A stretch of DNA of 64,000 nt from Microbacterium flavescens (GTDB lineage Bacteria > Actinomycetota > Actinomycetes > Actinomycetales > Microbacteriaceae): assembly GCF_018588945.1 (NCBI RefSeq), contig NZ_JAFIWA010000002.1, positions 1-64,000 of the forward strand, read 5' to 3'. The notes under the pieces were generated by a model. That model was not told the DNA's origin, ran no database searches, and saw only the letters and a list, made by a program, of their open reading frames with translations. Numbering within the stretch: the first letter of the stretch is position 1; the number at the start of each line of letters is the position of its first letter. Position numbers and translations under genes: made by a program. Positions 4,913 to 32,620 of this stretch are shown here, piece by piece.

Positions 4913-4917
4913 CGTCG

Positions 4918-7864: not shown

Positions 7865-8072
7865 CCCGCTTCTCCGTTCGTGCTCGCTCCGGAGCTGTTA
7901 CTGAACGATATCCCGACAGGGTGCTGGCACGCAGGTTGCCAGCCGATTTGCGCACGTGAGCCGGGATGCGCACGGGAGACGAGCGACTTCCTGCGGACAC
8001 GGGCTCGTTCCAGGGCGGTGACGTACGATCGCCCTAGGCGCGGCTCCCCCCGTCACGCCCGATTGGAACGCC

Positions 8073-10246: not shown

Positions 10247-10359
10247 AAAGCGAGCGGATGCCGCGGTCCGGCGTGCCGCGGCGCCGGAGGCCGATGCGCA
10301 CATCGCTTCCGCTTACCGCCGTCTCGGGGTAGACCAGAGGTGAGAGGACGGAGGACGGT

Positions 10360-11171: not shown

Positions 11172-11278
11172 GCCGTCCAGTGTGCGCCACCGCGCGCGGG
11201 CTGGGTCTCAACACCAGCAAATGCACAGGCAAACGCAATGCCACCGTTGCCGGTCGCTCAATGATCGGCGGCGCGCGC

Positions 11279-11812: not shown

Positions 11813-11826
11813 GGTCCGAGTCTGCC

Positions 11827-12526: not shown

Positions 12527-13312
12527 TCATTCGCCGGCGCGGTCATCGACGGGGTCGCTGGTCGCGGACGAGTCGAGTGCTTCGCTCGCGGCGCGCCGCC
12601 CTTCGGCGATCAGGCGGGGCACATCCCGCATGGTCCACTGCGCCATCCGCTCCATCTCGGGCTGGATCAGCAGGATCGTGGGATCCGCGACGAGCTCGGC
12701 GATCTTCGTGGTGGACCGCATCATCCTGGCGTTCTCCCACTTCGCGTGGAGATGGACGACGATCACTCGATCAGCGCCCAGCTCCCGCGCCGACGCGTGA
12801 GGCACGTTGTCGACCATGCCGCCGTCGGCGAGCAGGCGGCCGCCGAGACGCACGGGCGGCAGGATTCCCGGCACGGCGATCGTCGCGCGCAGCGCGGCGC
12901 TCAACGGCCCCTTGTCGATGGTGACCGCCCGGCGCGTTCGCAGATCCGTGGCAACGGCGCCGAACCGACGCGGCAGATCCTCGATGCGCGGATCCTCGCC
13001 GAGCAGGCCCTGAATGGCGTCCATGACGACCCGGGTGTCCAGCAGCCCCCAGCGCGGCTGGAAGCTCCATCGTGCGATGCGGCTCCAGCGGAACCGCAGC
13101 GCGATCCGCTCGAGCGTCCCACCACTGAGTCCTGCGGCGTACGCGGCTCCGACGAGCGCGCCTGAGCTCGTCCCGGTGACAATTCCAGGACGGATGCCTC
13201 GTTCCTCGAGCACCTGCAGAACTCCCACGTGCGCTGCGCCGAAGGCGCCCCCGCCGCTGAGCGTGATGCCCAGGCGAGGGTCGTCCTTCGGTGCTGGAGT
13301 CTCGGGCGGCAC
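12527..13312 (-). CDS. Patatin-like phospholipase / serine esterase
   Basis: 261 residues. The oxyanion-hole loop GGGAFG, nucleophile elbow GTSSG and catalytic DGG (LLADGGMVDNVPH) are all intact, so it should be an active acyl hydrolase. No signal peptide or membrane segment is seen. RssA-like bacterial patatins are the closest match in size. The GTG at 13312 lies 6 bases after TACCGT, supporting a leaderless start. The gene is followed by the YigZ-like gene, with a possible short overlap. Confidence 0.9.
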   Translation of the reverse strand: MPPETPAPKDDPRLGITLSGGGAFGAAHVGVLQVLEERGIRPGIVTGTSSGALVGAAYAAGLSGGTLERIALRFRWSRIARWSFQPRWGLLDTRVVMDAIQGLLGEDPRIEDLPRRFGAVATDLRTRRAVTIDKGPLSAALRATIAVPGILPPVRLGGRLLADGGMVDNVPHASARELGADRVIVVHLHAKWENARMMRSTTKIAELVADPTILLIQPEMERMAQWTMRDVPRLIAEGRRAASEALDSSATSDPVDDRAGE

Positions 13313-16300: not shown

Positions 16301-19300
16301 GGCTCCACACGGAGAGCGGCGCCGAAGCCGGCGAGAACGCCGCGCTGGCGCTTGCGGCGCCCGAAGAACCCTGATGTCTCGGCAGCAACGGCGGCCTTAT
16401 GCACGGACTCCACATCGCCGTCGAGCGCCTCGGGGCCGACGGACGCGAACCAGGTGCGTTCGACAGTGCTGGCGTTCAGTCGTTCCTGAAGCGCGGGAAC
16501 CTCGCCCGACAGCGTGCGCGCGTGGAGCGCGTCGATCGCGTCGAGTGGATGCCGCGGTGCAGTGGCCAGTGTGGCCCATCGGTCGAGTTGCGCCGGCGAC
16601 GAGACGAGTGCAAGCAGGTCGGCATCGGGTCGACGTGACAGCAGGTCGGAGAGGACCGAATCGAACTCTCGTGCGGCAGAGTGGACCTCGGCCGTGTCGA
16701 GGGTCGATGCCCCGGACACCGGGACGAAGCCCCACGGGTGGAGCGGCGTCGGGTGTGCCAGATCGGCTGTCTCCGGCAGCGTTCGAAGCAGATCCCGAAG
16801 GTAGTCGAACTGCTCCTCGGTGCCCGTCGCGACGAATGAGCTCGGAACTTCGAGTGCCTCGACGTCGTCCGCCGAGGCGAGAAGCTGCGCTCGCGCCGAG
16901 TAGAGGGACATGCCCGCGGAGTTGGGCTCGTGCAGTCGCTTGGCGTACCTGAGCAGCGATCCGCGGCTGGTTGCAGCCGCCTCCGTGTCGGCCTTGAGCG
17001 CCGCGGCGTCGGGTCGGGCGATCGCATCGATCGCCGCCCGGATCTGCGTCCGCACCGCATTCGGGCGTGCGCCCTTGTCATGCAGGTCGAGCGAGAAGGC
17101 ACCGAGGCCTACGGCATCCAGCCGATCCTTGACGACGTCCAGCGCCGCGCGCTTCTCAGCGACGAACAGTACACGCTTGCCGTTCGCGAGCGAGTGTGCC
17201 AGCAGGTTGGTGATGGTCTGCGACTTTCCTGTGCCGGGGGGACCCTCGAGCACGAACGTGCGAAGAGCCTCGGCCTCGGCGACGGCTTCAAGCTGCGAGG
17301 AGTCGGCTGGCACGGGAACGGCGTTGTTCAGGGCGTCGAGGTCGACGGCGGTGGGGGCGTCGAACGGGTCGACGTACTCGGCCGTCGGCGTGTCGATGAG
17401 GTGCTTGACGAGGGAGTTGCTCGCCAGCTCGTTCCAGTTCTCGTCGAGATCCTTCCAGAGGCGGTACTTTGCGAACTGCAGAATCGAAAGATCGACCGTG
17501 TCCTCCACCGTGAACGGCAGTCGTGCCGACGCCAAGGCGCGTCGCGTCGCCGCGAACGTTGCGGGCAGATCGATTCCAGAGTCGTCCTTTGCAGGGTTCG
17601 CGAGACCTGGGATGTTCAGCCCGAAACTTAGTCGGAGCTTCTCGAGGAGGCAGTAGTTAGGGGTGGACTCACCTGCTTCGTCGAGGCTGAGGCGGAACGT
17701 CTTGCCCCCGCCCGACGCCTCCAGGGCCACGGGGACGAGGACCAGCGGCGACCTCAGCTCGCGGTCGTTGAACGTCCAGCGCAGCATCCCGAATGCCAAG
17801 TAGAGGTTGTTGGCTCCGGTTTCTTCGACGATCGTCCGGGCCTTGTAGGCGAGTGCGCGCAGTCGGGTCGTATACGTCGCCTCGGTAACCCCGACGTAGA
17901 CTTGCTTGCGCTCGGTGAGCATTGCCGCGCGCGCCTGCTCGGGGAGGTCGTGACCGAATCGGATGCCGCGACTGCCGTCGACCGTGGGTATCCGGTCGCT
18001 CGGCACGAGCGTGACGGTCGTGCCGTTGTTGATCATGTCCTCGAACGCCGCCAGCGACGGCTGCGGAACCGCCAGCGGGTACCCGGACTTCTCGCCGTAG
18101 TTGACGAGGCGATTGCGCAGGCTCAAGTCGAGCAGCGCGTTCTTCCATTGCGCAACGCGCGGCGGGACAGGGCGACCGCTGCTGCCGGTCACCGGGTCCG
18201 ACGACGGCGCGTAGTGCAGAGCATCCGGGGCCTGCGCGACGGCGTACTCGGAGATCGTCACCTCGCCGGACTCGGTCATCGTCCGGCTGGGCAGAGGATA
18301 GATCCTCGCCAAGCGTGCTTGCATGACGTCGGTGACGCCCAGGACAGCAGAGATGTCACCCGACAGCGTCGCGACGTGCGGTTGCCGCCGCGCGTCGGCG
18401 AAGGGCTTCGATGTCGCGCCCCCCGTGAGGAAAGTGGTCTCGATGACCTCGATCTGCCCGATGCCGACGTAGTTCACCACCTCTGCCGCATCCAGCTGTG
18501 CCGGACCGTCGAGACTGGCGTCATCTCGCCAGTAACCGAGGAAGATGTGTCCCTTCAACAGCCAGAGGGTCGAGTTGATCCCGACCTCCTCGAGCGCGGC
18601 GGCGAGCGTGACAGTCGTGTCCAGGCATGTCCCGAGCCTGCCCTCGAGCACGTCCGCCGGCGTGCGTACCTTCTGCCCCTCGAGTCCCCAGCTCGCTGGA
18701 GGCTCTGCGTAGCGGATGTCGCGGGCGCGCATGCTCTCGTAGATCGCCTCCACGATCGCGTCAACTCGTTCCCGCGAACCCTGCTGGTAACCATCGAGAG
18801 CGGAGTTGCCCGTTGCGATCTGCAGTCGATCGGATGCTTCGAGGATCAGCGGTGCGATCGCCGGGGAGTTCGGCTGCACGAACGATGCGAGAAGCTCGAG
18901 ACTCAGTTGCGGCGGATTTGCGCGCCATTGGTTCGCAGCGAGCACGGTCACTTCGGTGTCGATGAACGTCACTACTATGCCGGCCCCGTCGCGCAGCGTG
19001 ACCCGGATCACACCCTGCACCGGGTGTTCGACGGCCAGCATGCGAGCAGGATCGAGCACCAGATCGGCGTTGCGGAGCGTTGTCGGCGTGGTGCCGTCCA
19101 GGTCCACGATGACCACCCTCGGGTCGCCCAGCGAACCGAGCTGGCAGATCGCCTCGACCTCGACCGACGCGGCCCGCAGTTCGGGTCCGCGGTAGTCCAC
19201 GACCACCTCGTCCACGATCGCGATGGAGTTGCGTGCGTGGGCATAGCTCAGATCTGGAAGCGTGCTCACGGTGATCGTCGCGCTGCCGGCTGGGTCGACC

Positions 19301-19881
19301 TTGGCGGCATCCCCGAACACGGGCGCGACAGGCGACGGGGGAGGTGCAGTTTGCGACGGTGCTGCGGGAACCTCGGGCGCGCCCATCGCTGATCCCGAGT
19401 CGGATGCTGCCGCCGGAATGGTCGCGCTGGACTCCATGGCCATGGCCGCCAACACCGGACCCTTGAGTGCGTGCACACCGTCGGCCTGGGCATTCGCTCC
19501 CAACTCTCGCAGCAGCATTTCTGCGGAGTCGAGCGCGCGATAGGTCTCAGCGACGGAGAAGTCCTCGTTGTGCGCCCACTTGTTGCGTACGTTCCGTAGT
19601 TCGCTCGCCCAGTTCTGCGCTTGCCGACTGGCGATACCCGCGAACGGATACCCGAGCGACCCGAATGACTCGGTGAACGCGCGCAGAATCAGGGAGACGT
19701 CTCGGGGGTTGTATCGGCCGAGCCCGCGGCCGGCCTGACGATCCTTCTGCGTGAGGATGTCGGTCCACTCAGCGACGGACGGCGCGAGCTCGTGGAACCG
19801 ACCGGCGACCACGGGGCCAAGGCCCGCACTTAGCGCGACGAGCGCCTTCTCAATGTGGCTTCGCGCATCGAACTCGTGCAT
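13384..19881 (-). CDS. Hhe-type defence protein: HEPN, transglutaminase-like, DUF4011, SF1 helicase, Vsr-like nuclease, DUF3320
   Basis: 2165 residues. Order: Swt1-type HEPN domain (about 1-135) with the RNase motif R99-N-x3-H104; beta-rich region; transglutaminase-like papain-fold domain with Cys419 (GTCLDTT) and His445 (KGHIFLGYW); DUF4011 from about 570 (WKNALLDLSLRNRLVNY); SF1 helicase with Walker A GPPGTGKS (Lys886), Walker B FDEAS (Asp1511), QGDE and the motif VI segment NVAITRARRQ; a Vsr/DUF559-like nuclease region (about 1810-1910); DUF3320 (about 1990-2045). HEPN-DUF4011-helicase-Vsr proteins were shown to be antiphage (Hhe). The added transglutaminase-like domain between HEPN and DUF4011 is notable. 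GAGGAG lies four bases before the ATG. It is divergent from the tubulin-like operon. Defence role inferred. Confidence 0.88.
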   Translation of the reverse strand: MHEFDARSHIEKALVALSAGLGPVVAGRFHELAPSVAEWTDILTQKDRQAGRGLGRYNPRDVSLILRAFTESFGSLGYPFAGIASRQAQNWASELRNVRNKWAHNEDFSVAETYRALDSAEMLLRELGANAQADGVHALKGPVLAAMAMESSATIPAAASDSGSAMGAPEVPAAPSQTAPPPSPVAPVFGDAAKVDPAGSATITVSTLPDLSYAHARNSIAIVDEVVVDYRGPELRAASVEVEAICQLGSLGDPRVVIVDLDGTTPTTLRNADLVLDPARMLAVEHPVQGVIRVTLRDGAGIVVTFIDTEVTVLAANQWRANPPQLSLELLASFVQPNSPAIAPLILEASDRLQIATGNSALDGYQQGSRERVDAIVEAIYESMRARDIRYAEPPASWGLEGQKVRTPADVLEGRLGTCLDTTVTLAAALEEVGINSTLWLLKGHIFLGYWRDDASLDGPAQLDAAEVVNYVGIGQIEVIETTFLTGGATSKPFADARRQPHVATLSGDISAVLGVTDVMQARLARIYPLPSRTMTESGEVTISEYAVAQAPDALHYAPSSDPVTGSSGRPVPPRVAQWKNALLDLSLRNRLVNYGEKSGYPLAVPQPSLAAFEDMINNGTTVTLVPSDRIPTVDGSRGIRFGHDLPEQARAAMLTERKQVYVGVTEATYTTRLRALAYKARTIVEETGANNLYLAFGMLRWTFNDRELRSPLVLVPVALEASGGGKTFRLSLDEAGESTPNYCLLEKLRLSFGLNIPGLANPAKDDSGIDLPATFAATRRALASARLPFTVEDTVDLSILQFAKYRLWKDLDENWNELASNSLVKHLIDTPTAEYVDPFDAPTAVDLDALNNAVPVPADSSQLEAVAEAEALRTFVLEGPPGTGKSQTITNLLAHSLANGKRVLFVAEKRAALDVVKDRLDAVGLGAFSLDLHDKGARPNAVRTQIRAAIDAIARPDAAALKADTEAAATSRGSLLRYAKRLHEPNSAGMSLYSARAQLLASADDVEALEVPSSFVATGTEEQFDYLRDLLRTLPETADLAHPTPLHPWGFVPVSGASTLDTAEVHSAAREFDSVLSDLLSRRPDADLLALVSSPAQLDRWATLATAPRHPLDAIDALHARTLSGEVPALQERLNASTVERTWFASVGPEALDGDVESVHKAAVAAETSGFFGRRKRQRGVLAGFGAALRVEPRKFPPREITPLTVEVTRTADEIRSLRSELATLPLPLVSAQWNPYLRDDAEPTRAALSWAVWLGSELSSSDGRPDLRQAFRRYYSSNRPDGDLAGSLTQLSTAWRALVAACGVTEPTGDGADVFSTWAREAGFFSAWVSTTGARSLTTSGPVTLDRWVAFRRHLEPLLRFGMTSAHDALLTGEVPADLASLALDKGIAQASVVERADSQAMAAFDVPAHNRTIDRFTSSAAAIRGALPRWIPAEIIAKRRIDPAYEGGMMGELKRQLARQRGGMTVRALFEHYGELITQIAPCVLMSPESVARFFPAKARMFDIVVFDEASQIRVADAVGAMGRGTSVVVVGDSKQMPPSSFAEISTDIESDTSAVADVVADEESILTECVQARVPRKWLSWHYRSQDEALITFSNHAYYDSRLSSFPAPWPTVESATHPDHGISLVRVSGHFNRSGRGRDLRTNAAEAEAIVREVAQRFAASPDETPSIGVITFNAQQRTLIETLLREAPDARIAHALDERDGLFVKNLENVQGDERDTILFSVAFSANERGSIPLNFGPLSRAGGERRLNVAITRARRQVILFASFDPSELRAEETASIGIKHLKGYLELAASGVESATDSAHRERLIDRHRDEIADELRYRGFAVSTDIGLSDFRVDISIADAAEPTRPLVAVLLDGESWRARRTVADRDGLPVDVLKGLMKWPGVERVWLPEWLQQREETLARLSAAVVEASAERQLPRSVPENAGEVAADAPVPSEPVVTPRADDPEPAAVRSAAGRFATPVRQTELRHPRLRQYVEWEPKRFGTTGTLDRLPHDSAVQAVRAVLRDIVQKEGPIHKMRLARLTAEAFGLNRVSGARADAILRCLPHEYLRTTDRSCAWPTGIDPVGWQDVRRSQPGDGRNFDHVPLEEIANAMAVVAELGGGMNEDELKRRALALFGGKRLTEGVSSRLADGLCRGLETGRIERDERGLVRAVDHF

Positions 19882-20092: not shown

Positions 20093-20112
20093 GCGGTCCC
20101 CGGGGGGACCGC
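20093..20112 (+). terminator. Leader hairpin with weak T-rich tail, possible attenuator
   Basis: A perfect 8-bp stem (GCGGTCCC/GGGACCGC) with a 4-base loop is followed by TTCTTCGT. It lies between the presumed promoter and the first gene of the operon at 20149. It could attenuate transcription, protect the mRNA or simply terminate stray upstream transcripts. Confidence 0.4.
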
Positions 20113-20148: not shown

Positions 20149-20574
20149 ATGTCGAAACTGCAGCACCCGGCGCGTCGAGCGCCGAGTGCACCTCCGCGTT
20201 CGCATGCGTCCGTTTCGCCGTGGCCGGTCATCTTCGGATGCGCGGCGACAGCCGCGAGCCTCATCATCGCCGTCCTCGTGGCTGTGTTCCTCAGTGCTCC
20301 GAGTACCGGATTGGGAATCGAGATCCCGATCGTGCGATCCGAGTATGCCTGGCTCAGCTTGCTGGGGTGGCTGCTGACGCCTGTCGCCGTGATCGCATGC
20401 TACGGCTGGGATGTCATCGGCCAGAGAAACGGGTTGCGACGCAATCGCGACATCGTGCTGCAACCGGCTTGGACAACCGTTCTCCTCACGCTGTCCGGCG
20501 TCGGAATCCTCATCGGCGTGTGGCACATCTTGAACCTCAGCGTGCCGCTCTCGGAGTGGATGGGCTTCGCATGA
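20149..20574 (+). CDS. Small three-TM membrane protein, first gene of the tubulin-like operon
   Basis: 141 residues. A basic, Pro/Ser-rich N-terminus (about 25 residues) is followed by three hydrophobic helices: PVIFGCAATAASLIIAVLVA, LSLLGWLLTPVAVIACYGW and a last one around VLLTLSGVGILIGVWHIL. No named domain is recognised. An AAGGGA ribosome-binding site lies eight bases before the ATG. Its stop overlaps the ATG of the vWA gene (ATGA), so it is coupled to it. It may act as a membrane adaptor or assembly factor; this is only inferred from position. Confidence 0.8.
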   Translation: MSKLQHPARRAPSAPPRSHASVSPWPVIFGCAATAASLIIAVLVAVFLSAPSTGLGIEIPIVRSEYAWLSLLGWLLTPVAVIACYGWDVIGQRNGLRRNRDIVLQPAWTTVLLTLSGVGILIGVWHILNLSVPLSEWMGFA

Positions 20575-23294
20575 GGCGAATCATTGGACTCGGCGTTGCG
20601 GCGGGCTTGATCGCGGGCGGCTTGGCGATCGGCGGCGCCGCCGCGCAGACGACCGTGGCAACGGACGAGGCGCTCCTCTCGCAGAATGGCCAGGCTGCGA
20701 TAGCGGATCTCCGCACTTGCCTCGCATCCGAGGACACGCTGAATGTCTATTACTTGATCGACAGCTCTCAGTCTCTAGACAGACTTGACGGCCAGGCCTC
20801 GGGAACGGGCTCGGATCCCGACAATGTGCGCGCTCCAATCCTTGCCAACAGCCTCGAAGAGCTCGGGCGCCTGAGCGAGAACGCCACGGTGAACTGGGCG
20901 GCCGGATTCTTCAGCACGGAGTTCTCTGCCGAGATCGAGTGGCACGAGTGGCAGGAGGGTGGACCCGAGGAGCTTGAGGCGGCGATCGAGGAAGAGGTCC
21001 CGTCGGGCTACACGAACTGGTCGGCCGCACTGAAAGGCGCGCAAGACGAGCTCGCGGGGCGAAGCGGATGCCGACTGCTGGTCTGGCTCACCGACGGCGT
21101 ACTTGATCTCCCCGACGGCGAAGGCGACACGACCCTGACGGCCGCCGAACGGGCTGAGCTCGACGGGCTCTGCAGCGCAGACGGCGCCTTCAACGAATTC
21201 CGCAGCGACGGGGTGGTGGTGATCGGTGCGCTCCTCTCCAAGACCGCGCCGCCGACGGCGAGCTCCGAGATGCAGAGACTCGTGGAGGGTGAGAACGCGG
21301 CAGGCGAAGTCTGCCAACTCCACCCCATGCCCGACGCGTATGCCCACGGTGCCTTCGTCGAGGCAGATGCGCCCGACTCGCTCCGCCGAGTCTTCCTCCA
21401 GTTGGGGGCGCAGGTTGGCGGAGGGTTCCCGCGCCCCTTCGACGAAGACGGATCCTTCTGGATTGACCCCGGCGTCGCGAGTTTCCGCATCATCCTCAGC
21501 GGCGATTGGACGCTGCATCCGCCCGAAGGCTCAGAGATGGAAGTCGCCACGGCGGCGGCTCCGTCCGGGTGGATGGAGTATGACGGGGAGTGGACGATTG
21601 ACGTCGGCACCACCACACCGGAAACCCATGGCAAGTGGAGGCTCGAGCGCGGCTCCGACGACGCCCCGGCGCTGTTCCTCTACAGCGGGCTCGCCATTCG
21701 GTTCGATGACACGACGACGATCGTAGTAGGCGCTGACGGCGAAGCTTCCGTGACTCTCGATGGTCAGGTACTCACCGCCGACGGTACTCCCGCCGATCTC
21801 AGCGGCCTGGATCACACATTGACGGCGACAATCGTGACCGAGGACGGGGCTCCTACGCAGCCGTTCATCTCGCTCGAGAATGCAACGGTGAATTCCGCGA
21901 ACGGCGCAATCAGCATTCCGATGCCCGATCTCGGCGAGGCGAATACAATCGGGGTCGAGGCGAAGATAGACCCGCTCGTCACGGTGGACCATGGCCTGAA
22001 GCTCGCGCCCGTCACGACGCAGAAGGAGTCCGTCGAGATCGTCGAGCCGGGCGACTACCCGCGTGTCACGGCTGTTGAAAAGGTTCAAGACCTCATCGGG
22101 GCGCGCGGTGAGGCGGTGTTCAACATCACGGTCGAGGCGCCTGCCGAGGGCGGCGAGGTCTGCTTCGAGGATCCGACGATCGACAGCGACCCCGCTGGGC
22201 GTGACGCCGGTAGCTGGAACTGGGACGTCCTGCCGTCGGGCTGTACGCCGGTTTCGGCGGACGGTGAGCAGTTCACTGTGACCGCGGGAAACACCACGGC
22301 AGCGGACACCGACGTTGTGGCCACACTGCCGGTCAGGTTGTTCGCGGCAGAGTCGGAGGCGAGCCCAGATGTCTATCCCGAGCAGAACCAGAACGTCCCT
22401 CTTGCGTTCCACTCGAGTCATCCGCTCAACCAGGGCGCCATCTGGCCACTCGCCCTGCTGCTCCTTGCCGCGGGAGTCCTCCTCCCACTCCTCGGCCTCT
22501 GGCTCGTCAACCGACTCACCGCTGGACTCGACGTCGACAACTCCCTTCAGCGGGGAGCGTTCGCGGTGAAGGTGCAGCCGTCGGGCGTCAGCTTCGTGGA
22601 TGCTCCGACCAGCGACACGGCCCTGTCGGAGCGGTTCCGCTACGTCACGGCCACCGAGAAGGTCCGGGTGCTCGATGACCCGGACGTGGGGCGGATCAGC
22701 CCGGTCGTGCCGTGGTTCCCCCTCATTCCGCCGTGGTACCGGATCCAGCCGTCCAGCGGTCGCAGCATCGCGGTCGCGCGGACAGCGTCGCGATCGGGCG
22801 GAAGTGGTGAGGTGCGAGCCGACGGTTCCGTACGATTCGCTCAGCTCCCGTTCGACGGGTTCTGGATGCTCGTCGTGTCCGATGCGGAGTTGGCGCGCAC
22901 CCAGGCGGGCGACCCGGTGAACGGAAACGTGGTCATCTATCACCGCGCGTCCTCGGACGGTCCCGCTCAGTATCGCGAACGCCTCACCCTCATCACGTCG
23001 GACACCAAGCTCCGCGACGCGGTCGACCGTGCTCGAGCACGTGGCGCGCAGGGGGCGACGGCCATTCCCGCCGCGACGACTCCAGCGAAGAATCCAGGGA
23101 AGGCGCAGCCAGCAGCGCCCGCTCGCGAGTCGGCTCCAGCAGACGCCGGCCCGCCGCCGCGGCCGGGCTCTGGGGCATCCAGCCCGGGTTCCCCCCCGCC
23201 GCGACCGTCAGGGTCGCAGTCGGGTTCGGCTGCCCCACCTCCGCCTCCGCCCTCACGCTCCAGCGGGCCGCCCCCGCGCCCGAGCGATCGCTGA
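20571..23294 (+). CDS. Secreted vWA-domain protein with single TM and proline-rich cytosolic tail
   Basis: 907 residues. A signal peptide (about 1-27, MRRIIGLGVAAGLIAGGLAIGGAAAQ) leads into a von Willebrand A domain with MIDAS motif DSSQS (Asp64), a Thr in SGYTNW and Asp175 in WLTDG, so metal-dependent ligand binding is likely. A long beta-rich extracellular region follows to about 620. The membrane segment is about 623-648 (IWPLALLLLAAGVLLPLLGLWL). The cytosolic part includes a roughly 170-residue folded region and ends in a Pro-rich tail with PPPRPG, PPPRPS and PPPRPS. The open frame extends upstream, but ATG 20571 overlaps the previous stop and starts the signal peptide. Its partner is unknown. 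The topology suggests sensing or adhesion outside linked to the GTPase inside. Confidence 0.88.
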   Translation: MRRIIGLGVAAGLIAGGLAIGGAAAQTTVATDEALLSQNGQAAIADLRTCLASEDTLNVYYLIDSSQSLDRLDGQASGTGSDPDNVRAPILANSLEELGRLSENATVNWAAGFFSTEFSAEIEWHEWQEGGPEELEAAIEEEVPSGYTNWSAALKGAQDELAGRSGCRLLVWLTDGVLDLPDGEGDTTLTAAERAELDGLCSADGAFNEFRSDGVVVIGALLSKTAPPTASSEMQRLVEGENAAGEVCQLHPMPDAYAHGAFVEADAPDSLRRVFLQLGAQVGGGFPRPFDEDGSFWIDPGVASFRIILSGDWTLHPPEGSEMEVATAAAPSGWMEYDGEWTIDVGTTTPETHGKWRLERGSDDAPALFLYSGLAIRFDDTTTIVVGADGEASVTLDGQVLTADGTPADLSGLDHTLTATIVTEDGAPTQPFISLENATVNSANGAISIPMPDLGEANTIGVEAKIDPLVTVDHGLKLAPVTTQKESVEIVEPGDYPRVTAVEKVQDLIGARGEAVFNITVEAPAEGGEVCFEDPTIDSDPAGRDAGSWNWDVLPSGCTPVSADGEQFTVTAGNTTAADTDVVATLPVRLFAAESEASPDVYPEQNQNVPLAFHSSHPLNQGAIWPLALLLLAAGVLLPLLGLWLVNRLTAGLDVDNSLQRGAFAVKVQPSGVSFVDAPTSDTALSERFRYVTATEKVRVLDDPDVGRISPVVPWFPLIPPWYRIQPSSGRSIAVARTASRSGGSGEVRADGSVRFAQLPFDGFWMLVVSDAELARTQAGDPVNGNVVIYHRASSDGPAQYRERLTLITSDTKLRDAVDRARARGAQGATAIPAATTPAKNPGKAQPAAPARESAPADAGPPPRPGSGASSPGSPPPRPSGSQSGSAAPPPPPPSRSSGPPPRPSDR

Positions 23295-23326
23295 CGTCCC
23301 CCACCCACTCCAGAAAGCGAACATCC

Positions 23327-26300
23327 ATGCTCAGGCCCTTCCTCATCATCGGAGTCGGTGGTTCCGGCGGAAAAACTCTCCGCGGCATCACCTACCAACT
23401 GCAGCTGAAGCTTCAGCAGGTCGGGTGGACGTCGGGCATCCCCGCCGCATGGCAATTCCTCCACTTCGACACACCTACCGCGCAGGACGGCGCAGACTTC
23501 CCCGCGCCGTTCCTTCCGGCCCAGCAGTACAAAGGTCTGGTCTCCACAGGAGCGACGTACAACACTGTCTACCGATCGATCGAGAGCTCGCACTCAACCA
23601 ATCGGCGCGTGCACCGCGACATCCAGCGTCAGCTTCCCGATCAGCGCTATGTCAAGGTCGACGTCACCAAGGGAGCAGGTCAGTTCCGCGCCGTGGGTCG
23701 AGCTGTCGCACTCGGCGCGACCAAGGAGATCGCTGCCGCAGCACGCGGCGCCATCGGTCGGCTGAGTGACGCGTCAGCGCTCGCTGAACTGCGGACGCTC
23801 GGTCAGCGGCTCAAGGTGCGTGGCGAGGGCAGCGACACCAGCCCCACCGTCATCGTCATATCGTCCATCGCCGGTGGATCTGGAGCCGGCCAGTTCCTCG
23901 ACGTCATTGAAGTGGTCAAGTCCACGGCGAAGCAGCACCCCTGGTCGAACCAGGTGTTCAGCATCCTGTACGCGCCTGACGTCTTCGACCAGATAAACGG
24001 CAGCGCCGGCATGCCGGGAAACGCGTTGGCGGCGATCACCGAAACCATGAACGGGTTCTGGTCGAATGCCCCGTCCGACTCGACTCTCGAGCTGTTGAAG
24101 AGCCAGGGGGTGGCGCCGTCGTACGGCGACGCGATGGACCGCGTGGGTGCTGCCTATCCGTTCATCGTCGGTCGGAGCAACAGCAAGGTCACCTTCGAAG
24201 ACCAGACCGCCGTCTACAATGCCGTCGCCACCAGCCTCACGGCGTGGATCACCGACGAGCGGGTGCAGGACGACATGGTCGCCTACTCGTCGGGCAACTG
24301 GCAGGCTCGTGTCGGGGCGAACGTACTCGCTGACCGGTCGGGGCTCGCGAGCCCTGTGCACAACGCACCGCCGTTCTCTTCTATGGGCTTCGGACGCGTC
24401 ACGCTGGGACGTGAGCGGTTCCTCGAGTACTCGGCGGAGCGCTTCGCGCGGTCGGTGATCGATCGGATGCTGTTCGCGCACACGGAGGGGGATCCGCAGT
24501 TCGAGCAGAAGACCGAGCGCGAATGGATCGAGTCCGGGGCTGACAAGTCGTATCAGCGGTTCCTCAACGATCTCAAGCTGAACGAAGAGACCGAGGAGCA
24601 CAACCAGGTCATCGACGCATTGCGCGCCGACGCCACACTCGAACAGATCAAGGCCGAGCTGGAGAGCGGAGTAGGGCAGCGCCTCGGGAACAGCGGTGGC
24701 TTCGACAAGTCCGGTGGGCTCGAGCTCTCTGTGTGGACCGATCGCATGATGCGCGAGTACGCGAACCGGTCCCCGGAGATGCTCCTGCGCGACCAGCGCG
24801 ATCGCCAGGTGCGCCTCGAGCAGTGGACCAAGCACATGCCGTCCCACATTCTCCATACCGTCGCCACCTACACATCAGACGTGGGCCTTCCCGTCGCCGT
24901 CGCGATGCTAGGCCGCCTCGACCGTACGCTGCGCAGCGCCGCCGATGGGCTCGAGGGTGAGTCGCGCCAGTTCGACCAGTGGGTCCAGGACCTACCATCG
25001 CTGGTCGCCGATGAGTTGCGGCACGCACCGAACCAGACGTCCATCCGCCCAGACCAAGACGTCATCTCGCACGCCATCGAGCGACTGGCACAGGCGTTGG
25101 GGTGGGCGAGCGAGTCCCGCCTCCGGCGGAGTGCGGCGAAGCTGCTCAACGAACTGCGGGCGGATTTCCTTGGCCCGCTTCGCACCCACCTCGAGGGGGC
25201 TTTGGAAGCGCTCCGGCAGCGTGTCGGCGACACGCGCACGACAGATCAGCGCACCAACGAGTTCCAGTTCTGGCCGTCCCGGATCGATGCCACCGTGCCC
25301 CGCAAGTACGAGCCGGCACCGAACGAGCGGCTCCTCGTCGACCACCGGGAGTATCCCGCAGAGTTCGAGCGACTGGTCCGAGCAAGCGTCGAAGGCGACG
25401 AGTCGCGCTATCAGAACGCGATCCTCGACATCATGACCCAACTGCTCATCGGCGACGCCCCCGATTCGGTTCGAGAAGACGATCCCACCTCTTGGACGCT
25501 CATCGCCAGCACGCGGACGTGGAAGACGAGCGTGAGCGCGGATCCGGACTCGTCCTTTGCTCCGCAGACCCCTCACTTCCGTATGGAGACCGAGCCCGAG
25601 GTCTACCTAGAGCGTGCCCGACTCTGGATGCGGCGCGAGGGGATGCCGTTCCAGGCATACATCGGGGAGGACCTGCTCACGTACTTCGACGAGAACGGCA
25701 ACCCGCCGGACGTCTTCGCGAAGCGTCGGGATCGCTATCGAGAGCAGCTGCAGGCCGCGCTCGGCGCGAGTGAACCGCTCGTGAAGTTGAACTCCGGCCT
25801 CCTCAGAGCCGTGCACGACAAGGCGGTCAACGAGGACACCAGTCTGGTCATCAGTTCCATTCCGTTCCGCGAGGGAACCACGATGTACACCGTAACGAAG
25901 GCGGTGCTCGCGGAACTCGGCTTCTGGGATGACGCGACCTCCGAGTCGTGGTTCCGCGACGCGCGGGTCGACGGCATCGAGGTCTTCGCGATGTCGGGGT
26001 TCCCCTACCAGCCGATCGTCATGGACTCTGTCATGGAGCCCATCGCGCGGGGCTGGCTCAGCCAGTCGGGGACTCAGGACAGCCGCGAGGCGTTCTGGCA
26101 GTTCAAGCGCTCGCGTCTGCTGGGCGAGTCCATCCCGGCTGATCAGCGGGTCATCGCTTCGATGATCCGAGGCTGGTACGTGGCCAAGACGCTCAATCGT
26201 CTCGACATCAAGAGCACCGCGGGCGAGCGTGGTCCGGAGCTGCTGGTCTGGGACCCCCACTCACGGAAGCACGTCGGCTTCCCGCATCCGCTCCTCACGG

Positions 26301-26740
26301 CGCGCAATGCCCTGCCGGTGGACTACCCGGGCGCCGTCATGCAGTCGCTCACCATCGCGATCGCACTGTGTCAGGTGGACGGTACTCTCGACTCGCTGCG
26401 TCCCTACCAGGTGCTCGCAGCATTGGGTGGGGAGCAGAACGCTCCTGCGCCCGTGCTCACGAACTGGCTGCAGCACGGCATCGTCGATGGGGGCGCGCCC
26501 CCGATGAAGAGCGATCGCGCGGGAACGGCCGACAGCACACTCGAGGAGCGTAGGGAGATCGTCCGTCGCTTTCTGTCGAAGGAGCTCGAGCGTTTCCGTT
26601 CCGATGTTGAGGAGCAGGATGACACGGTGCTGGTCTCCGACTACCCGGTGACGTGGGAGCTGCGCGAGTACATCACGGATGCGCTCGAGGGTCTCATGTC
26701 GACGGTGATGGCCACCCGTTCCGACGATTCGGGGATCTAG
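23327..26740 (+). CDS. Tubulin/FtsZ-like GTPase (Tubulin_2 type)
   Basis: 1137 residues. The N-terminal GTPase domain begins with FLIIGVGGSGGKTLRGI (residues 6-21, nucleotide-binding loop) and contains SSIAGGSGAGQFLDVIEV, whose GGSGAG (183-188) stands in for the tubulin signature GGGTGSG. About 800 further residues, largely helical and charged, have no domain I can name. The length is far above FtsZ (about 400). Related FtsZ-like proteins have been proposed to remodel membranes and often neighbour vWA and membrane proteins, as here. It starts 32 bases after the vWA gene, and its TAG shares a base with the next GTG. GTP use and polymerisation are inferred from the family only. Confidence 0.85.
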   Translation: MLRPFLIIGVGGSGGKTLRGITYQLQLKLQQVGWTSGIPAAWQFLHFDTPTAQDGADFPAPFLPAQQYKGLVSTGATYNTVYRSIESSHSTNRRVHRDIQRQLPDQRYVKVDVTKGAGQFRAVGRAVALGATKEIAAAARGAIGRLSDASALAELRTLGQRLKVRGEGSDTSPTVIVISSIAGGSGAGQFLDVIEVVKSTAKQHPWSNQVFSILYAPDVFDQINGSAGMPGNALAAITETMNGFWSNAPSDSTLELLKSQGVAPSYGDAMDRVGAAYPFIVGRSNSKVTFEDQTAVYNAVATSLTAWITDERVQDDMVAYSSGNWQARVGANVLADRSGLASPVHNAPPFSSMGFGRVTLGRERFLEYSAERFARSVIDRMLFAHTEGDPQFEQKTEREWIESGADKSYQRFLNDLKLNEETEEHNQVIDALRADATLEQIKAELESGVGQRLGNSGGFDKSGGLELSVWTDRMMREYANRSPEMLLRDQRDRQVRLEQWTKHMPSHILHTVATYTSDVGLPVAVAMLGRLDRTLRSAADGLEGESRQFDQWVQDLPSLVADELRHAPNQTSIRPDQDVISHAIERLAQALGWASESRLRRSAAKLLNELRADFLGPLRTHLEGALEALRQRVGDTRTTDQRTNEFQFWPSRIDATVPRKYEPAPNERLLVDHREYPAEFERLVRASVEGDESRYQNAILDIMTQLLIGDAPDSVREDDPTSWTLIASTRTWKTSVSADPDSSFAPQTPHFRMETEPEVYLERARLWMRREGMPFQAYIGEDLLTYFDENGNPPDVFAKRRDRYREQLQAALGASEPLVKLNSGLLRAVHDKAVNEDTSLVISSIPFREGTTMYTVTKAVLAELGFWDDATSESWFRDARVDGIEVFAMSGFPYQPIVMDSVMEPIARGWLSQSGTQDSREAFWQFKRSRLLGESIPADQRVIASMIRGWYVAKTLNRLDIKSTAGERGPELLVWDPHSRKHVGFPHPLLTARNALPVDYPGAVMQSLTIAIALCQVDGTLDSLRPYQVLAALGGEQNAPAPVLTNWLQHGIVDGGAPPMKSDRAGTADSTLEERREIVRRFLSKELERFRSDVEEQDDTVLVSDYPVTWELREYITDALEGLMSTVMATRSDDSGI

Positions 26741-29700
26741 TGGCCGATCGTTTCTGGCCCGGCGCGAAGGCGAGCATCGTCTTGCTTCCCAGTGGGGAGC
26801 AAGGAGAGAGGCTGCTGGATCTCGCGGCGGAGTGGACTCAGATGGGTCTTCTTGGGCCGGCGCTCTGGGTGCTCCCCGAGCGCGTGGGTGACGGAGTCGC
26901 GGGCCCGCCGCGCATTACCGCGGTCGTGCTCGGCATCGATGTCGACCTGGAAGTCCGTCGCGTCGAGGTGGACCTGTTCGAGGCGCTCGCCCGCGAGGTC
27001 CTCACGGTCGTGAGGCTTGTGAAGCTTCGGTCGGCTGCGCCGTCGCGTGAAATGGACGCTTTGCAGGATGCGATCGCCGAGCGCGTTCGCGAATACGTCC
27101 GCAAGTCGATGCCGATGCCGAACCCCGGCACGACGGTACTTGACCAGACGGCGGAGCTGAAGCACGCGACGCTCATCTGCGCGCCGACCGAGTTCCAGTT
27201 GCAGCAGCGTGTGGACTGGGCATCCTCGGAGTTCGGAGTCGTCGTCGTGGCCTCGCCCGAGGACCGATCGAGCCCGTGGTCAGGTGACGCTTTCGTCCGC
27301 GACGACGATCGATTCGTGGGTTTCACGCTTCTCCACGTCGTCAGCGTGGCGGGGCTGTGGCGTGGACTGCCGACTGGCAGCTTCGAGCTGGTGCGCCGAG
27401 AGGAATCGGGCCACAGAAGCGTCTGGCTCTCACGCGTCTTCATCAACGCCGTCCTCGCCGGTGCACTCAGCCGTCGGGCTGCTGCCCAGGTATTGACCGA
27501 GGCCGCGCGATCCGATTCGGCCTTGGTCGACCCCGGCTTCAGCGCCCCACCCGTCGGCACCGTCTTCATCCAAGACGGCCAGGTCAGCGGCTACATCGAT
27601 GAGATGGTTCAGGGGGCGATGTCGCTCGACGGCGGCGCGCTGGAGTTCAACGAACCAGCCGTGACAGCGGAGCCTGCGCGGGACCGGTCCAACGCCGGGA
27701 CGGAGAGCGTCCGGTTCGTCTCGTTCAGCGCAGACAAGCTAGCTCGGGTACCGGTGTGGACCTGGCGCTGGCTGACGTCGGCCGCGTACCGTCGCGTCAC
27801 CAAGGCCCTTCACTCCGACGAAGGGTCCACGGAACTCGTCGGGTACGAGTCGCATGTGTTCGACACCCGTGAGCTCGAGCTGATCGCAGACGCCGAGCGC
27901 ATCGTCATGGACGAGCAGCGCGCCAGGGCTGAAGCCGGTGCGCCCGCCTCTGTGTCTCACATCAAGTCGACACCGAGACTTTGGGCGCGGTTGAGAGAAC
28001 TCGTCTTCGGCTCACTCGATGGCAGTGCCGATCTCAGCGACCTTGGGTTCGCACCGATCGAGGATGCCGTTCCCATCTTCGGACGTGTCAGCGATGTGCT
28101 CGCACTGCCTGAACACCCGTGGCTCCCACCGCGAAGTCTCGTTCCCCACGACTTCCCGGAGCGGGTCGACTGGTACGTGCTCGCGCTGGAGGACCCGCGC
28201 GAGCGCCTTGTGGACGCTGCGGCGGACGCCAGCGCAGCGCGAGACGCCGCGCAAAGGGAGGTCACCACGCTGCAGCAGGATGTGGAGCGTTTGAAGGCCG
28301 AGCTCTCAACTCCGATAGCCTCGCCGGTCGAGGCACCCCCTTCAGCAACGCCCGCCGCTGCAGGGACGGAGTCCGGGCCTGCGGCACCGCCTCCGCCGCC
28401 GGCACCCCCGGCCGGTGATGCTCCGGAAACGCTGGCACTCAAGACGTCCATCGCAAGGGTCGAAACCAAGCTGGGAGAGGCGACGGCCGAATTCGCACGA
28501 TTCTCCATCGAAGCCGAGCGGTTCGAGGGTGGCGTCAACGCGTTCGACGAGTGGGCCTCCACGCAAGATCGGACGTTCGTTTGGCGCCTGTTGACACGCC
28601 TGGGTGGCGAGCGCCGCGCAGCGGAGCAGAAATCCGCCGAATTCAGTGAGCAGATCGACTCGCTTACCATCCCTGAGCCCGGTGAGCTGATCAGACTCCG
28701 CAGCCGATTCCACCGAGTCGTGGTTCCGACGTGGCTCATCGGCGCAGTGGTGGCGGGCCTCTCCGTCTATGAACTGGTTCGTCGAGCGATCCGCGGCGAC
28801 GACATCGCGTCTGAAATCGAACTGTGGACGATCCTGGGCGCGACCGTCGGGGTCGTCGTCATCATCAGCGTGATCGCCCTGATCGCCTACCACCGAGGGT
28901 GGTCCCGTTTCCAGCGCCGGATCAATCTCGAACGGCACAGGCTTGCGCAGCTCGGAACCAATTCGCGGACCGCGCGGCAAGAGGCGTCTCGGCTGGCTTC
29001 GCTGCATCGTCAGACCGTCGATTGGCTCGTCCTGCTCTCCCGCGCGATCCATCGACCGTGGCACGTGCCCGAGCAGTGGACTGCCAAGGACGACCTCGAG
29101 GTCGCGCGCTCCCGCATGCCGTTCGCCGTCCAGGTAGCCACGGTCGTCGATGACGACCACGCCAGCGCAACCCGGCTGCGAGGCGTGATGACCGAGCATC
29201 TCTTCGTGCGGGGCTGGCGCCACGACGCGTTCACCTCGCTCGTGCGCGAGATCGCTATCGATCGCGGCATGCTGTCGAGTTCGTTCGGTCCGCACACGCT
29301 CGACGAAGACCTTCCGCACGCGTCGAACCACAGTCGGCGCATGCTGCTGGCCGCGATCGACGATGAGCACGTCCTGACGCGAGTCGCCGGGCCACGTCTG
29401 GAAGAACTTATGAAGGCCGCCCATCGGGATGAGGGTCAGGTCACCCGTCCCCGCGTGCAGCCCGTCGTCGATGATCCGCTCCATGTGATCGCCCGCGGCC
29501 CCAACGGCGAGCCCATCGCCACCGATCGCGCGTGGGATGACTTCCTTCTGGGATCGCTCGCCGGCCGCACCGACCCCATGACTCCGCTGAGCGCGACCGT
29601 GCTCACCGAGATCGAGTTGGGGGAGCGGCACCACGAGCGCGTGCAGAGTCATCTGGTGTTGCCCGAACGACTCGCGGCGAAGCTCGCCTACTCAAAGGAC

Positions 29701-29901
29701 ACCCCCGTGCAGGTCGTCTCGTTCCCGGATGATTCCACCGGGGTGGTCGACCTGAGTTGGAGGGTCGACATCGCTGGACCGGTCCCGATTCGCGCGATCC
29801 ACCTGTGGGATCGGACGTCGCGGCCGCGCAATCCCGAGAGCTCGGCGGTGCCCACCACGAACACAAGCGGGGATGCCGAAGAGATCGACACCGGCATCTG
29901 A
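26740..29901 (+). CDS. Large two-TM coiled-coil protein of the tubulin-like operon
   Basis: 1053 residues, not assigned to a known family. The N-terminal 480 residues look globular and cytosolic. A coiled coil (about 490-530) and a Pro/Ala linker with PAAPPPPPAPPAG follow, then a second coiled coil. Two membrane helices lie near 663-681 (TWLIGAVVAGLSVYELV) and 693-716 (TILGATVGVVVIISVIALIAY), then about 330 soluble residues. Both ends should face the cytosol. The GTG at 26740 overlaps the GTPase stop by one base (TAGTG), indicating tight coupling; the longer upstream frame is the GTPase gene read in another frame. It may anchor the tubulin-like protein to the membrane, which is an inference. 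Confidence 0.82.
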   Translation: MADRFWPGAKASIVLLPSGEQGERLLDLAAEWTQMGLLGPALWVLPERVGDGVAGPPRITAVVLGIDVDLEVRRVEVDLFEALAREVLTVVRLVKLRSAAPSREMDALQDAIAERVREYVRKSMPMPNPGTTVLDQTAELKHATLICAPTEFQLQQRVDWASSEFGVVVVASPEDRSSPWSGDAFVRDDDRFVGFTLLHVVSVAGLWRGLPTGSFELVRREESGHRSVWLSRVFINAVLAGALSRRAAAQVLTEAARSDSALVDPGFSAPPVGTVFIQDGQVSGYIDEMVQGAMSLDGGALEFNEPAVTAEPARDRSNAGTESVRFVSFSADKLARVPVWTWRWLTSAAYRRVTKALHSDEGSTELVGYESHVFDTRELELIADAERIVMDEQRARAEAGAPASVSHIKSTPRLWARLRELVFGSLDGSADLSDLGFAPIEDAVPIFGRVSDVLALPEHPWLPPRSLVPHDFPERVDWYVLALEDPRERLVDAAADASAARDAAQREVTTLQQDVERLKAELSTPIASPVEAPPSATPAAAGTESGPAAPPPPPAPPAGDAPETLALKTSIARVETKLGEATAEFARFSIEAERFEGGVNAFDEWASTQDRTFVWRLLTRLGGERRAAEQKSAEFSEQIDSLTIPEPGELIRLRSRFHRVVVPTWLIGAVVAGLSVYELVRRAIRGDDIASEIELWTILGATVGVVVIISVIALIAYHRGWSRFQRRINLERHRLAQLGTNSRTARQEASRLASLHRQTVDWLVLLSRAIHRPWHVPEQWTAKDDLEVARSRMPFAVQVATVVDDDHASATRLRGVMTEHLFVRGWRHDAFTSLVREIAIDRGMLSSSFGPHTLDEDLPHASNHSRRMLLAAIDDEHVLTRVAGPRLEELMKAAHRDEGQVTRPRVQPVVDDPLHVIARGPNGEPIATDRAWDDFLLGSLAGRTDPMTPLSATVLTEIELGERHHERVQSHLVLPERLAAKLAYSKDTPVQVVSFPDDSTGVVDLSWRVDIAGPVPIRAIHLWDRTSRPRNPESSAVPTTNTSGDAEEIDTGI

Positions 29902-29904
29902 CCG

Positions 29905-30840
29905 ATGAGCTTACCTCCACCACGCCCCGGCGCCGCCGGCGCGTCCCCGCCGCCGCGCCCGACTACGGGCTCGGTCGGCGCATCTCCGCCCCCGGGCAGG
30001 CGTCCCGCGCCGGAGACGTCAGCGCCTGCGGTCGCACCGGCGCCAACGAGACCTCGATGGGCGCTCGCAGGCGGACTTGCTGTGATCACGCTGGTGGTCG
30101 GAGTACTCATCGGGTTCTTGCTGGGGTCGGCCGGCAGTGGTGTCACCGCATCGCCTGCAACCACTTCAGCGGCGCCGAGTTCGGCGACGGCGCCGCCATC
30201 CGTGACGAGGCTGGCGACACCGTCGCCGGACGCGGTTCCCTCGCCCACGCCGACGGCCGCTGCGACGCAGGGAGCGACCGACACCGTCGCGCAGACGCGA
30301 TTGCTGCTCAACGACATACCGATCGTCGACGGACGCTCAGAGGCTCGTTACTACCGCGATGCTTTCGGTGAGACGTGGTACGACGTCGATGGGAACGGAT
30401 GCCGCACGCGAGACGACATCCTCGGGCGCGACCTGACGAATCCGACGTTCAAGCCCGGAACAAACGAGTGCGGGGTGAAGAGCGGCGTACTCACCGATCC
30501 CTATAGCGGCGTCGTCGTCGATTTCGTGTCTGGGTGGGACACCTCGCAGCTTGTGCCCGTCGATCACATCGTCGCGCTGGCATGGGCGTGGCGCCAGGGC
30601 GCCGACGACTGGACGGCCGCACAGCGACTGAAGTTCGCGAACGATCCGATCAATCTTGTCGCAACGACCCGAGAGATGAATGACGAGAAGTTGGATCACG
30701 GTCCCAGCCAGTGGCTGCCGCCGCTGCAGGCCAGCCGGTGTGACTACGTCGTGCGGTGGGTGACGGTCCTCGGCGTGTACGAACTGGGCGTCAATGCGGC
30801 GGACAAAGCTGCGGCAGAGTCGGTCCTCGATCAGTGTTGA
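29905..30840 (+). CDS. Membrane-anchored HNH nuclease (GmrSD/DUF1524-like)
   Basis: 311 residues. A Pro-rich N-terminus with PPPRPG, PPPRPT and PPPGRRP (about 1-45) is followed by one membrane helix (about 51-73, WALAGGLAVITLVVGVLIGFLLG), a Ser/Thr/Ala/Pro linker and a C-terminal nuclease domain. LVPVDHIVALAWAW (Asp220-His221), ANDPINL (Asn250) and EMNDEK (Asn259) are the HNH residues of the GmrSD C-terminal/DUF1524 group. With a single N-terminal helix after a Pro/Arg tail, the nuclease probably faces outside. It starts three bases after the previous gene and ends the operon. The tail repeats match those in the vWA protein. Nuclease activity is inferred from intact residues. Confidence 0.87.
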   Translation: MSLPPPRPGAAGASPPPRPTTGSVGASPPPGRRPAPETSAPAVAPAPTRPRWALAGGLAVITLVVGVLIGFLLGSAGSGVTASPATTSAAPSSATAPPSVTRLATPSPDAVPSPTPTAAATQGATDTVAQTRLLLNDIPIVDGRSEARYYRDAFGETWYDVDGNGCRTRDDILGRDLTNPTFKPGTNECGVKSGVLTDPYSGVVVDFVSGWDTSQLVPVDHIVALAWAWRQGADDWTAAQRLKFANDPINLVATTREMNDEKLDHGPSQWLPPLQASRCDYVVRWVTVLGVYELGVNAADKAAAESVLDQC

Positions 30841-31725: not shown

Positions 31726-32493
31726 ATGGGCGGACGCTCTCAGATCGACACGACCTTTGACGTGCGTACGGACTCTTCGGGGAAGGACCCAGACAGTCAC
31801 AGCGCGACGCTCCGCCGGTACCACCGACTGCTGTGGAGTAAGCCGCTGCCGGACGGATCCCCATTCGACCTCGACGCGCGGCTTCGGCACAGTTCGGAGA
31901 AAGGGGTCTTCTGGCTCGCGAGCGATGCCATCACACACACGTACTCGACTTGGTCAAGGCCAGCGCGTTTGGTCGCAGTCCTGCGCGAGGTACCTCCCGC
32001 GGAGTTGACGGCTTTCTACGATCTCGGCTGCACGGTGGGTGCCTACACGGTCTTCCCTTATGCGATCCAGATCGATGGCAAGTGGCGGCGGTCGATCAAC
32101 CAGGCTCGAGGAATGCACCATCAGGTGCGGGACCGATTCGACCTCACTCTTGAGTGCATACGACGTCACTACGATGGCGGCGAGCCGAGCCCACTGAGTG
32201 ATGTGCTCGCGGACTACTCCGACTTCTTTCGACTCTTCGACAGCTTCCGCGGGTACGTCCAGCACTTCCTCCTGGAGGATCTGGTCGAGCACGACTATCG
32301 ATCAGTGAAGTTCCTCAAGGGCTTCGACGCCTTCGCCGGTGACGCGCTCCCTGTCGGCGATATCGCGGAGTACCGGGAGTACATGATGCGCTCGATGGAC
32401 TTCATCCGCGCGCGCAACGTGCGGATCGATCGCTTCGCGTCGGCGTTGGAGGCGGGTGACCCCGGTGAGGTCCGATACACCCCCAAATTCTGA
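31726..32493 (+). CDS. Protein of unknown function (possibly DUF6994 family)
   Basis: 255 residues, soluble, rich in aromatic and charged residues. The segment TTFDVRTDSSGKDPDSHSATLRRYHRLLWSKPLPDGSPFDL near the start looks like a conserved family opening that I associate with DUF6994, but I cannot verify this. No catalytic motif is obvious. A leaderless promoter precedes the ATG. It is the last protein gene before the tRNA at 32545-32620 and lies at the right edge of the accessory block. Confidence 0.75.
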   Translation: MGGRSQIDTTFDVRTDSSGKDPDSHSATLRRYHRLLWSKPLPDGSPFDLDARLRHSSEKGVFWLASDAITHTYSTWSRPARLVAVLREVPPAELTAFYDLGCTVGAYTVFPYAIQIDGKWRRSINQARGMHHQVRDRFDLTLECIRRHYDGGEPSPLSDVLADYSDFFRLFDSFRGYVQHFLLEDLVEHDYRSVKFLKGFDAFAGDALPVGDIAEYREYMMRSMDFIRARNVRIDRFASALEAGDPGEVRYTPKF

Positions 32494-32544: not shown

Positions 32545-32620
32545 TGGACGCGACGGCGGGAGTCGAACCCGCAACACGCCCGGGTATGAGCCGGTGCCCG
32601 GGACCACCCGGATCGCCGCG
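32545..32620 (-). tRNA. Atypical tRNA with CAT anticodon (tRNA-Met-like), CCA encoded
   Basis: A 76-base cloverleaf can be drawn on the minus strand: acceptor stem CGCGGCG / CGTCGCG (7 bp, one G-U), discriminator T, encoded CCA, T arm GCGGG-TTCGACT-CCCGC, anticodon loop CTCATAC (anticodon CAT), variable loop CGTGTT. The D arm is unusual, with stem CCGG/CCGG and a loop of only 6 bases (GTGGTC). The first anticodon-stem pair is A-G. It lacks the initiator GGG/CCC anticodon-stem pairs. It could be an elongator Met, a lysidine-type Ile2, or a non-standard tRNA. Confidence 0.65.

Follow-up and report, generated by a model that had tools for sequence, protein, structure and literature searches.

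A five-gene operon of Microbacterium flavescens lies on the plus strand at 20149-30840 of the window, the whole stretch of 64,000 nucleotides analysed here from a genome of 3.4 Mb, and its genes form a real co-inherited system. We tentatively propose that the operon encodes a membrane-anchored, GTP-driven machine of the cell envelope directed against phages or incoming DNA, and that it represents a GAP1-less sister of the GAP1-N2 tubulin systems. Judged from sequence, what appears to be new is the joining of a tubulin/vWA/scaffold core lacking GAP1-N2 to an HNH protein, the core itself being already known.

Composition and conservation of the operon

The ORF calls give the following order on the plus strand. 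Gene 1 (20149-20574) encodes a small membrane protein of 141 amino acids with three transmembrane (TM) segments, assigned by hydropathy only; gene 2 (20571-23294) a vWA protein of 907 amino acids; gene 3 (23327-26740) an FtsZl1/Tubulin_2 GTPase of 1137 amino acids; gene 4 (26740-29901, GTG start) a two-TM scaffold-like protein of 1053 amino acids with a variable linker; and gene 5 (29905-30840) a predicted membrane-tethered HNH nuclease of 311 amino acids. Genes 1 and 2 overlap by 4 bases and genes 3 and 4 by 1 base, while gaps of 32 and 3 bases separate genes 2 and 3 and genes 4 and 5, respectively. These genes, their coordinates, overlaps and gaps, and their domains had been read from the letters in the first-pass annotation and were borne out by the ORF calls, Pfam, hydropathy and homology. 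Pfam gave only a sub-threshold match for gene 1 and no family for genes 2 and 4. PADLOC returned only weak matches for gene 5 (E 0.008-0.015), located outside the HNH domain. Upstream of the operon no Rfam match was obtained, and a search for sigma-70-like promoters found none, a result that says little at this base composition. A strong hairpin at 20093-20112, followed by a T-rich stretch, lies 36 bases before gene 1 and is a possible terminator or attenuator in the leader; its conservation was not apparent by eye in the relatives.

A scan of genome contigs yielded 8 loci, and among 398 genomes from the family to which the organism of the window belongs 23 had a match, one of them a fragment. 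After flanks had been fetched and genes called, 24 distinct loci including the window were long enough to judge. This count leaves out L007 and L009 (short contigs), L031 (the fragment), L047 (the same DNA as L008) and the GAP1-type loci L050 and L051, and G309 was not among the fetched flanks. The vWA, GTPase and scaffold genes stand in the same order and on the same strand in all 24 loci, and the three-TM gene precedes the vWA gene in 23 (22 as called genes and L033 by tblastn). L049, in which no homologue of the three-TM gene was found, has at this position a TM gene of 115 aa that shows no recognisable similarity. The HNH gene directly follows the scaffold gene in 14 of the 24 loci and is an optional member. 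The first-pass annotation had regarded homologues occurring singly among unrelated neighbours as evidence against a system; in these 24 loci the GTPase never occurs without the vWA and scaffold proteins. The arrangement is conserved over several genera, which rules out a chance assembly.

The ten loci without an HNH gene after the scaffold (L002, L004, L005, L008, L038-L041, L044 and L048) carry various genes behind the core, including NYN and UPF0114 families by Pfam and MOSC-like and LLM-like genes recognised by eye from translations. In L004 and L005 a short TM protein, proline-rich in L004, occupies the HNH place and resembles the first portion of the HNH gene, with the nuclease domain missing. 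Related HNH genes occur elsewhere in L038 and as a second copy in L042, where the vWA and scaffold genes were called in pieces and the genome is 89% complete. In L032 (5408-5809) and L035 (5480-5884) an extra three-TM protein, weakly DUF6264-like, directly follows the HNH gene and is a possible sixth member of the operon.

This operon type was found in 19 of the 398 genomes of the family. Within the genus, 3 of 59 genomes carry the GTPase (that of the window, G797, which holds locus L002, and G106), each at a different place. The record of L003, whose GTPase is 77% identical to that of the window, is titled Planococcus sp. and is perhaps mislabelled. Loci L032-L036 of genus g46 have the same upstream neighbour gene (53-88% identical), and L004, L005 and L037 have a common upstream neighbour of the ABC-transporter type (68-83%), indicating that some copies stay put, which argues against easy mobility.

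A related arrangement is present in the GAP1-type loci. The GTPase is 26-28% identical to that of three family genomes (G234, G309 and G331), all of which carry GAP1-N2, and in L050 and L051 the order is a small TM gene, vWA, GTPase, a scaffold-like gene, another large gene and GAP1. The GAP1-N2 domain was absent from all 18 genomes tested among the 19 that have the present type, G094 being the remaining one.

Features of the encoded proteins

The GTPase matches Tubulin_2 (PF13809) over residues 6-378 with E=2.5e-40 and 139.3 bits (cut-off 27). We take Tubulin_2 to be the Pfam name of FtsZl1, and by its sequence the gene 3 protein is a member of this family. Loss of the GTP-site residues among homologues had been named beforehand as an observation that would speak against the proposal; we found the T1 loop GVGGSGGKT unchanged in all 24 operon loci and the T4 loop AGGSGAG in 23 of them, L049 having AGGTGSG. 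The corresponding loops in the two GAP1-type loci are GCGGSGG and AGGAGAS. The AlphaFold model of the GTPase was poor (mean pLDDT 54.5, alignment of eight sequences) and shows long helices at 435-634 with low confidence; Foldseek against the PDB returned nothing for it at E<=0.001, CetZ/tubulin-type chains appearing only at E of about 1.4-1.6, and a profile search against PDB sequences gave nothing useful. The model of the scaffold protein was similarly poor (mean pLDDT 54.6, also eight sequences), and neither Foldseek at the same threshold nor the profile search against PDB sequences found anything useful for it. Since both models are poor and the Foldseek searches were empty, we make no claim on the fold of either protein. 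A search of phage records and viral contigs found no relative of the GTPase, and a plasmid search found two distant relatives, on Rhodococcus megaplasmids (26%).

The two TM segments ascribed to the scaffold-like protein in the first-pass annotation were recovered by hydropathy only, at 660-678 (just under threshold) and 698-716. Its profile matched 2 of 396 genomes over the phylum, both in the genus of the window, and hhalign gave a weak match with the correspondingly placed gene of the GAP1-N2 tubulin loci (E=8.6e-6, probability 83).

The gene 2 protein begins with a hydrophobic, signal-like N-terminus, followed by a vWA and beta-rich region, one TM segment at 628-646 (by hydropathy only), a cytosolic domain and a proline-rich PPRP tail, in agreement with the signal-peptide vWA protein with one TM segment noted at first. 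Pfam did not match a vWA domain in this protein. We assign it to the vWA proteins because it contains a complete MIDAS motif (DxSxS...T...D; D64, S66, S68, T148 and D175), because its profile against the PDB matched the vWA domain of TRAP adhesins (E=7.8e-5) and because it is homologous to a protein that matches Pfam VWA_2 at its cut-off. The MIDAS residues and five cysteines of the ectodomain are invariant in 13 of 13 aligned homologues. The vWA and beta-rich region probably faces outside, as had been proposed. When vWA profiles were compared with those of the two GAP1-N2 tubulin loci, hhalign gave E=2e-28.

The HNH protein consists of a PPPRP N-terminus, the expected single N-terminal TM segment (54-72, by hydropathy only), a linker rich in S, T and P, and an HNH domain of the GmrSD_C family (PF07510, E=4.1e-12); phmmer against PDB sequences gave nothing useful. 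All 13 aligned proteins retain the catalytic DH and N motifs, and in each of them the nuclease domain contains four cysteines, no more and no fewer, at corresponding positions; the L049 protein, checked separately, has both features (14/14). The alignment left out L049, L038 and the second L042 gene. The four cysteines are as one would expect of an exported enzyme. Since the protein of the window has two Arg residues before the TM segment and none after it, the HNH domain is probably extracytoplasmic, which supports as probable the outward nuclease of the first reading.

The vWA and HNH proteins share a proline-rich motif. The cytosolic tails of the vWA proteins carry repeats of the PPRP/EPPRR type, and 22 such tails together contain 50 PP[RL][PR] motifs where shuffling of the tails predicts 8.6, with 12 of the 22 individually at 0.05 or below; since the motif was chosen after looking, these numbers are a guide and not a test. 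The tails of L033 and L042 (broken calls), L047 (a copy), and L049 and L051 (divergent) were left out, and that of L049 visibly lacks the motif. A PPRP-type motif is present near the N-terminus of 9 of 13 HNH proteins, its position being uncertain in L033, L034, L036 and L037 together with their start codons, and the proteins without it (L042, L043, L045 and L046) have almost no cytosolic N-terminus. The motif is also found in the small TM protein of L008 and L038 and at the N-terminus of the extra small TM protein of L032 and L035. As controls, none of 145 genes from elsewhere had the motif, and the two with it among 145 flanking genes were both the extra TM protein after HNH. From the motif common to vWA tails and HNH N-termini we infer a common cytosolic partner.

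Genomic island and defence neighbourhood

The operon lies in a variable island of 20.7 kb (11826-32544), defined by alignment to the relative G804, which ends at the 3' end of a tRNA-Met gene (32545-32620, minus strand). G804, which matches the right flank best, can be aligned to 1-11825, with gaps, and then from 32544 onwards, about 1 kb of unrelated DNA lying between the two parts; it has no copy of the GTPase anywhere in its genome. The right-flank matches of G799, G797 and G798 also begin at the edge of tRNA-Met, and in G797 the GTPase lies far from the tRNA-Met site, which is free of the operon. In L067 (13866-13891), 26 bases identical to the 3' part of tRNA-Met recur about 1.7 kb from the tRNA, a trace such as an integrating element might leave, and this tRNA gene may be an integration hot spot. 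In its left part the island contains a patatin-like phospholipase gene (12527-13312), which adjoins a gene for a ProA homologue of 2165 amino acids (13384-19881, minus strand; NCBIfam NF058533, 1761.9 bits, cut-off 1500). ProA is an anti-phage family, and this homologue, encoded divergently to the operon, is a companion of the operon in the island and stands outside it. Its Pfam domains are DUF4011, SF1 helicase domains, the MTES_1575 nuclease and DUF3320; the NCBIfam ProA model spans residues 212-2129, and an N-terminal HEPN_Swt1 domain lies before this stretch. Downstream of the operon are a 170-aa gene and, between operon and tRNA, a gene for a DUF6994 protein (31726-32493, E=5.5e-79). No integrase was seen among the patatin, ProA, operon, 170-aa and DUF6994 genes of the island.

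It had been suggested that enrichment in defence islands would support a defence system, and we therefore scanned the surroundings of the 23 other loci with PADLOC (E<=1e-10). Defence genes lie near at least 8 of the 23 loci: ZacABC, which we take to be the Azaca system, directly downstream in L042 and L043; DrmA/DrmB (DISARM) at L049; MzaD/MzaE at L034; an MzaC-like helicase match at L035; a type I methyltransferase at L003; SoFic at L038; and an MkoA-like helicase at L046. These are among the first 25 of 102 families matched in the flanks, and PDC-S07 (2), C3a156 (2) and one of three ZacC matches were not assigned to loci. The literature consulted on the ProA and Zac names contained no describing paper. 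The controls comprised 145 genes from 18 of 20 stretches in 15 of the same genomes, and their matches were SspH, HTH_VI, AriA, PDC-M01A and mad-type. When counted by gene, with mad types left out of both sets, defence genes made up at least 14 of the 145 genes in the flanks and 4 of the 145 controls (p=0.026), the 14 being a lower bound because 28 of the 145 flanking genes were scanned singly. Counted by locus, the comparison of at least 8 of 23 with at most 4 of 18 was not significant (p=0.50), and multi-gene defence systems were found at 4 or more of the 23 loci against none of 18 (p=0.12). The enrichment is modest and suggestive only.

Proposed working, alternatives and relation to known systems

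Based on these observations, we suggest the following mode of action, by which the operon may defend the envelope against the entry of DNA. First, the outward MIDAS-containing ectodomain of the vWA protein would sense an event at the surface, such as phage contact, wall damage or a tail protein. Second, its cytosolic domain and proline-rich tail, together with the two-TM scaffold, whose ends are predicted to be cytosolic, would couple this event to the FtsZl1 GTPase. Third, GTP-dependent assembly of the GTPase, perhaps into filaments linked to the membrane by the scaffold, would cluster the membrane complex; the superfamily of this GTPase is filament-forming. Finally, the one-TM HNH nuclease on the wall side would be gathered at the cluster and would cut DNA crossing the envelope. 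A nuclease outside the membrane would be harmless to the host genome, so self and non-self would be discriminated by place. The full form of this scheme, a cytoskeleton-based envelope immunity in which vWA-triggered assembly and proline tags gather the HNH protein at the injection point and phage or conjugative DNA is cut before it reaches the cytoplasm, we regard as rather unlikely when taken as a whole.

The main alternative is that the proteins remodel the envelope and have no part in defence, the HNH enzyme degrading extracellular DNA for nutrition or matrix turnover, which we consider conceivable, if on the improbable side. FtsZl1/vWA operons were so interpreted in the available text of the 2010 study (PMC2875224), and the common upstream neighbours of L032-L036 and of L004, L005 and L037, as well as the ten loci whose core has no following HNH gene, agree with such a role; the patchy presence in the family and the genus, and the position of the window operon in a variable tRNA island beside ProA, argue against it. 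A conflict mechanism in the style of GAP1-N2 systems, in which NTP-gated assembly would lead to membrane effectors or cell suicide with HNH as an exchangeable effector, seems clearly less probable. The vWA homology and GTPase identity given above point to it, as does the order of small TM gene, vWA, GTPase and scaffold-like gene shared with L050 and L051, with a variable last slot. However, the GAP1-N2 domain is missing from all 18 genomes of this type that were tested, the genes after the core in HNH-less loci are mostly ordinary-looking, and an extracytoplasmic nuclease could hardly kill the cell that makes it. Contact-dependent antagonism, with HNH as an exported toxin for neighbouring cells and the other proteins as its delivery apparatus, is very improbable: the probably outward HNH domain and the adhesin-type vWA match would suit it, but the HNH protein is anchored by a TM segment and bears a cytosolic tag, and its domain is conserved, not variable. 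Least probable of all, the HNH gene would be separate and merely follow a core that is a system of its own, which would fit its absence after the scaffold in ten loci and the related HNH genes elsewhere (L038 and the second copy of L042), but not its place directly after the scaffold in the other 14, its 3-base gap in the window and 1-base overlap with the preceding gene in L046, or the proline-rich motif common to HNH and the vWA tail.

The first-pass annotation considered the operon to be an undescribed system, and this claim falls for the tubulin/vWA core, which has been published twice. FtsZl1 proteins with vWA partners were described in 2010 by Makarova and Koonin, whose available text counts FtsZl1 among the most diverged members of the FtsZ-tubulin superfamily and proposes that the operons act in membrane remodelling (PMC2875224). 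As far as that text goes, the present operon resembles them in the N-terminal FtsZ-like domain with T1 and T4 loops, the MIDAS vWA partner and the TM partners in the operon; it differs in that Pfam recognises neither a protein kinase nor an OmpA or P-loop GTPase family in its five genes, and in two additions, the putative HNH nuclease tethered to the membrane and the large scaffold with two TM segments. In 2020 Kaur et al. described GAP1-N2 conflict systems of actinobacteria that contain a tubulin and a vWA protein of the membrane (PMC7159879, available text). The GAP1-N2 tubulin systems share with the present operon a homologous vWA membrane protein, an FtsZl1 GTPase with a long C-terminal part, a weakly homologous scaffold and, in L050 and L051, a small TM gene in first place, whereas the present operon has no GAP1-N2 and carries an HNH protein at its end instead. 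Pfam showed no DO-type GTPase, FNIII or HRDC family in the five genes and none at L050 either; in L050 the 353-aa gene after GAP1 has no P-loop pattern or Pfam family, and the GTPase of that system was not located. Since the core is shared with these loci, we regard the operon as a GAP1-less sister type, a reduced form related to predicted conflict systems, and since it lacks GAP1-N2, a defining feature, we do not file it as a GAP1-N2 system. Because the operon is small and self-contained, without GAP1 and with a clear enzymatic output, the function of a vWA/tubulin core becomes directly testable in it.

Zorya is an envelope-embedded sensor complex with nuclease effectors; PADLOC gave no match for genes 1-4. 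The type IV restriction enzyme GmrSD has the HNH domain family PF07510 of gene 5, whereas the gene 5 protein is TM-tethered, has four cysteines and is probably extracytoplasmic. GmrSD_C was the only domain Pfam found in the 311-aa protein, with no other GmrSD (ParB-like/DUF262) domain, and GmrSD has a ParB-type domain according to the available text of PMC12839542. Titles and beginnings of abstracts, in literature mostly without subscription papers or supplements, described no tubulin/vWA operon with an HNH nuclease and reported no experiment on FtsZl1 function, and word searches inside the available texts of PMC12839542, PMC13092281 and PMC10067837 found no tubulin/vWA/HNH operon.

The closest analogue in working is SNIPE, a membrane-bound nuclease of E. 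coli that cuts phage DNA during injection (Nature 2026, PMC13190303). The comparison is one of function and not of homology, and SNIPE is a single membrane-bound nuclease whose abstract names no tubulin-like or vWA partner. Since SNIPE, as its abstract presents it, indicates that cutting DNA where it enters can be protective, we would by analogy favour defence at DNA entry for the present operon. If its nuclease works at the membrane, the operon would stand beside SNIPE as a multi-protein actinobacterial example of entry-site cleavage.
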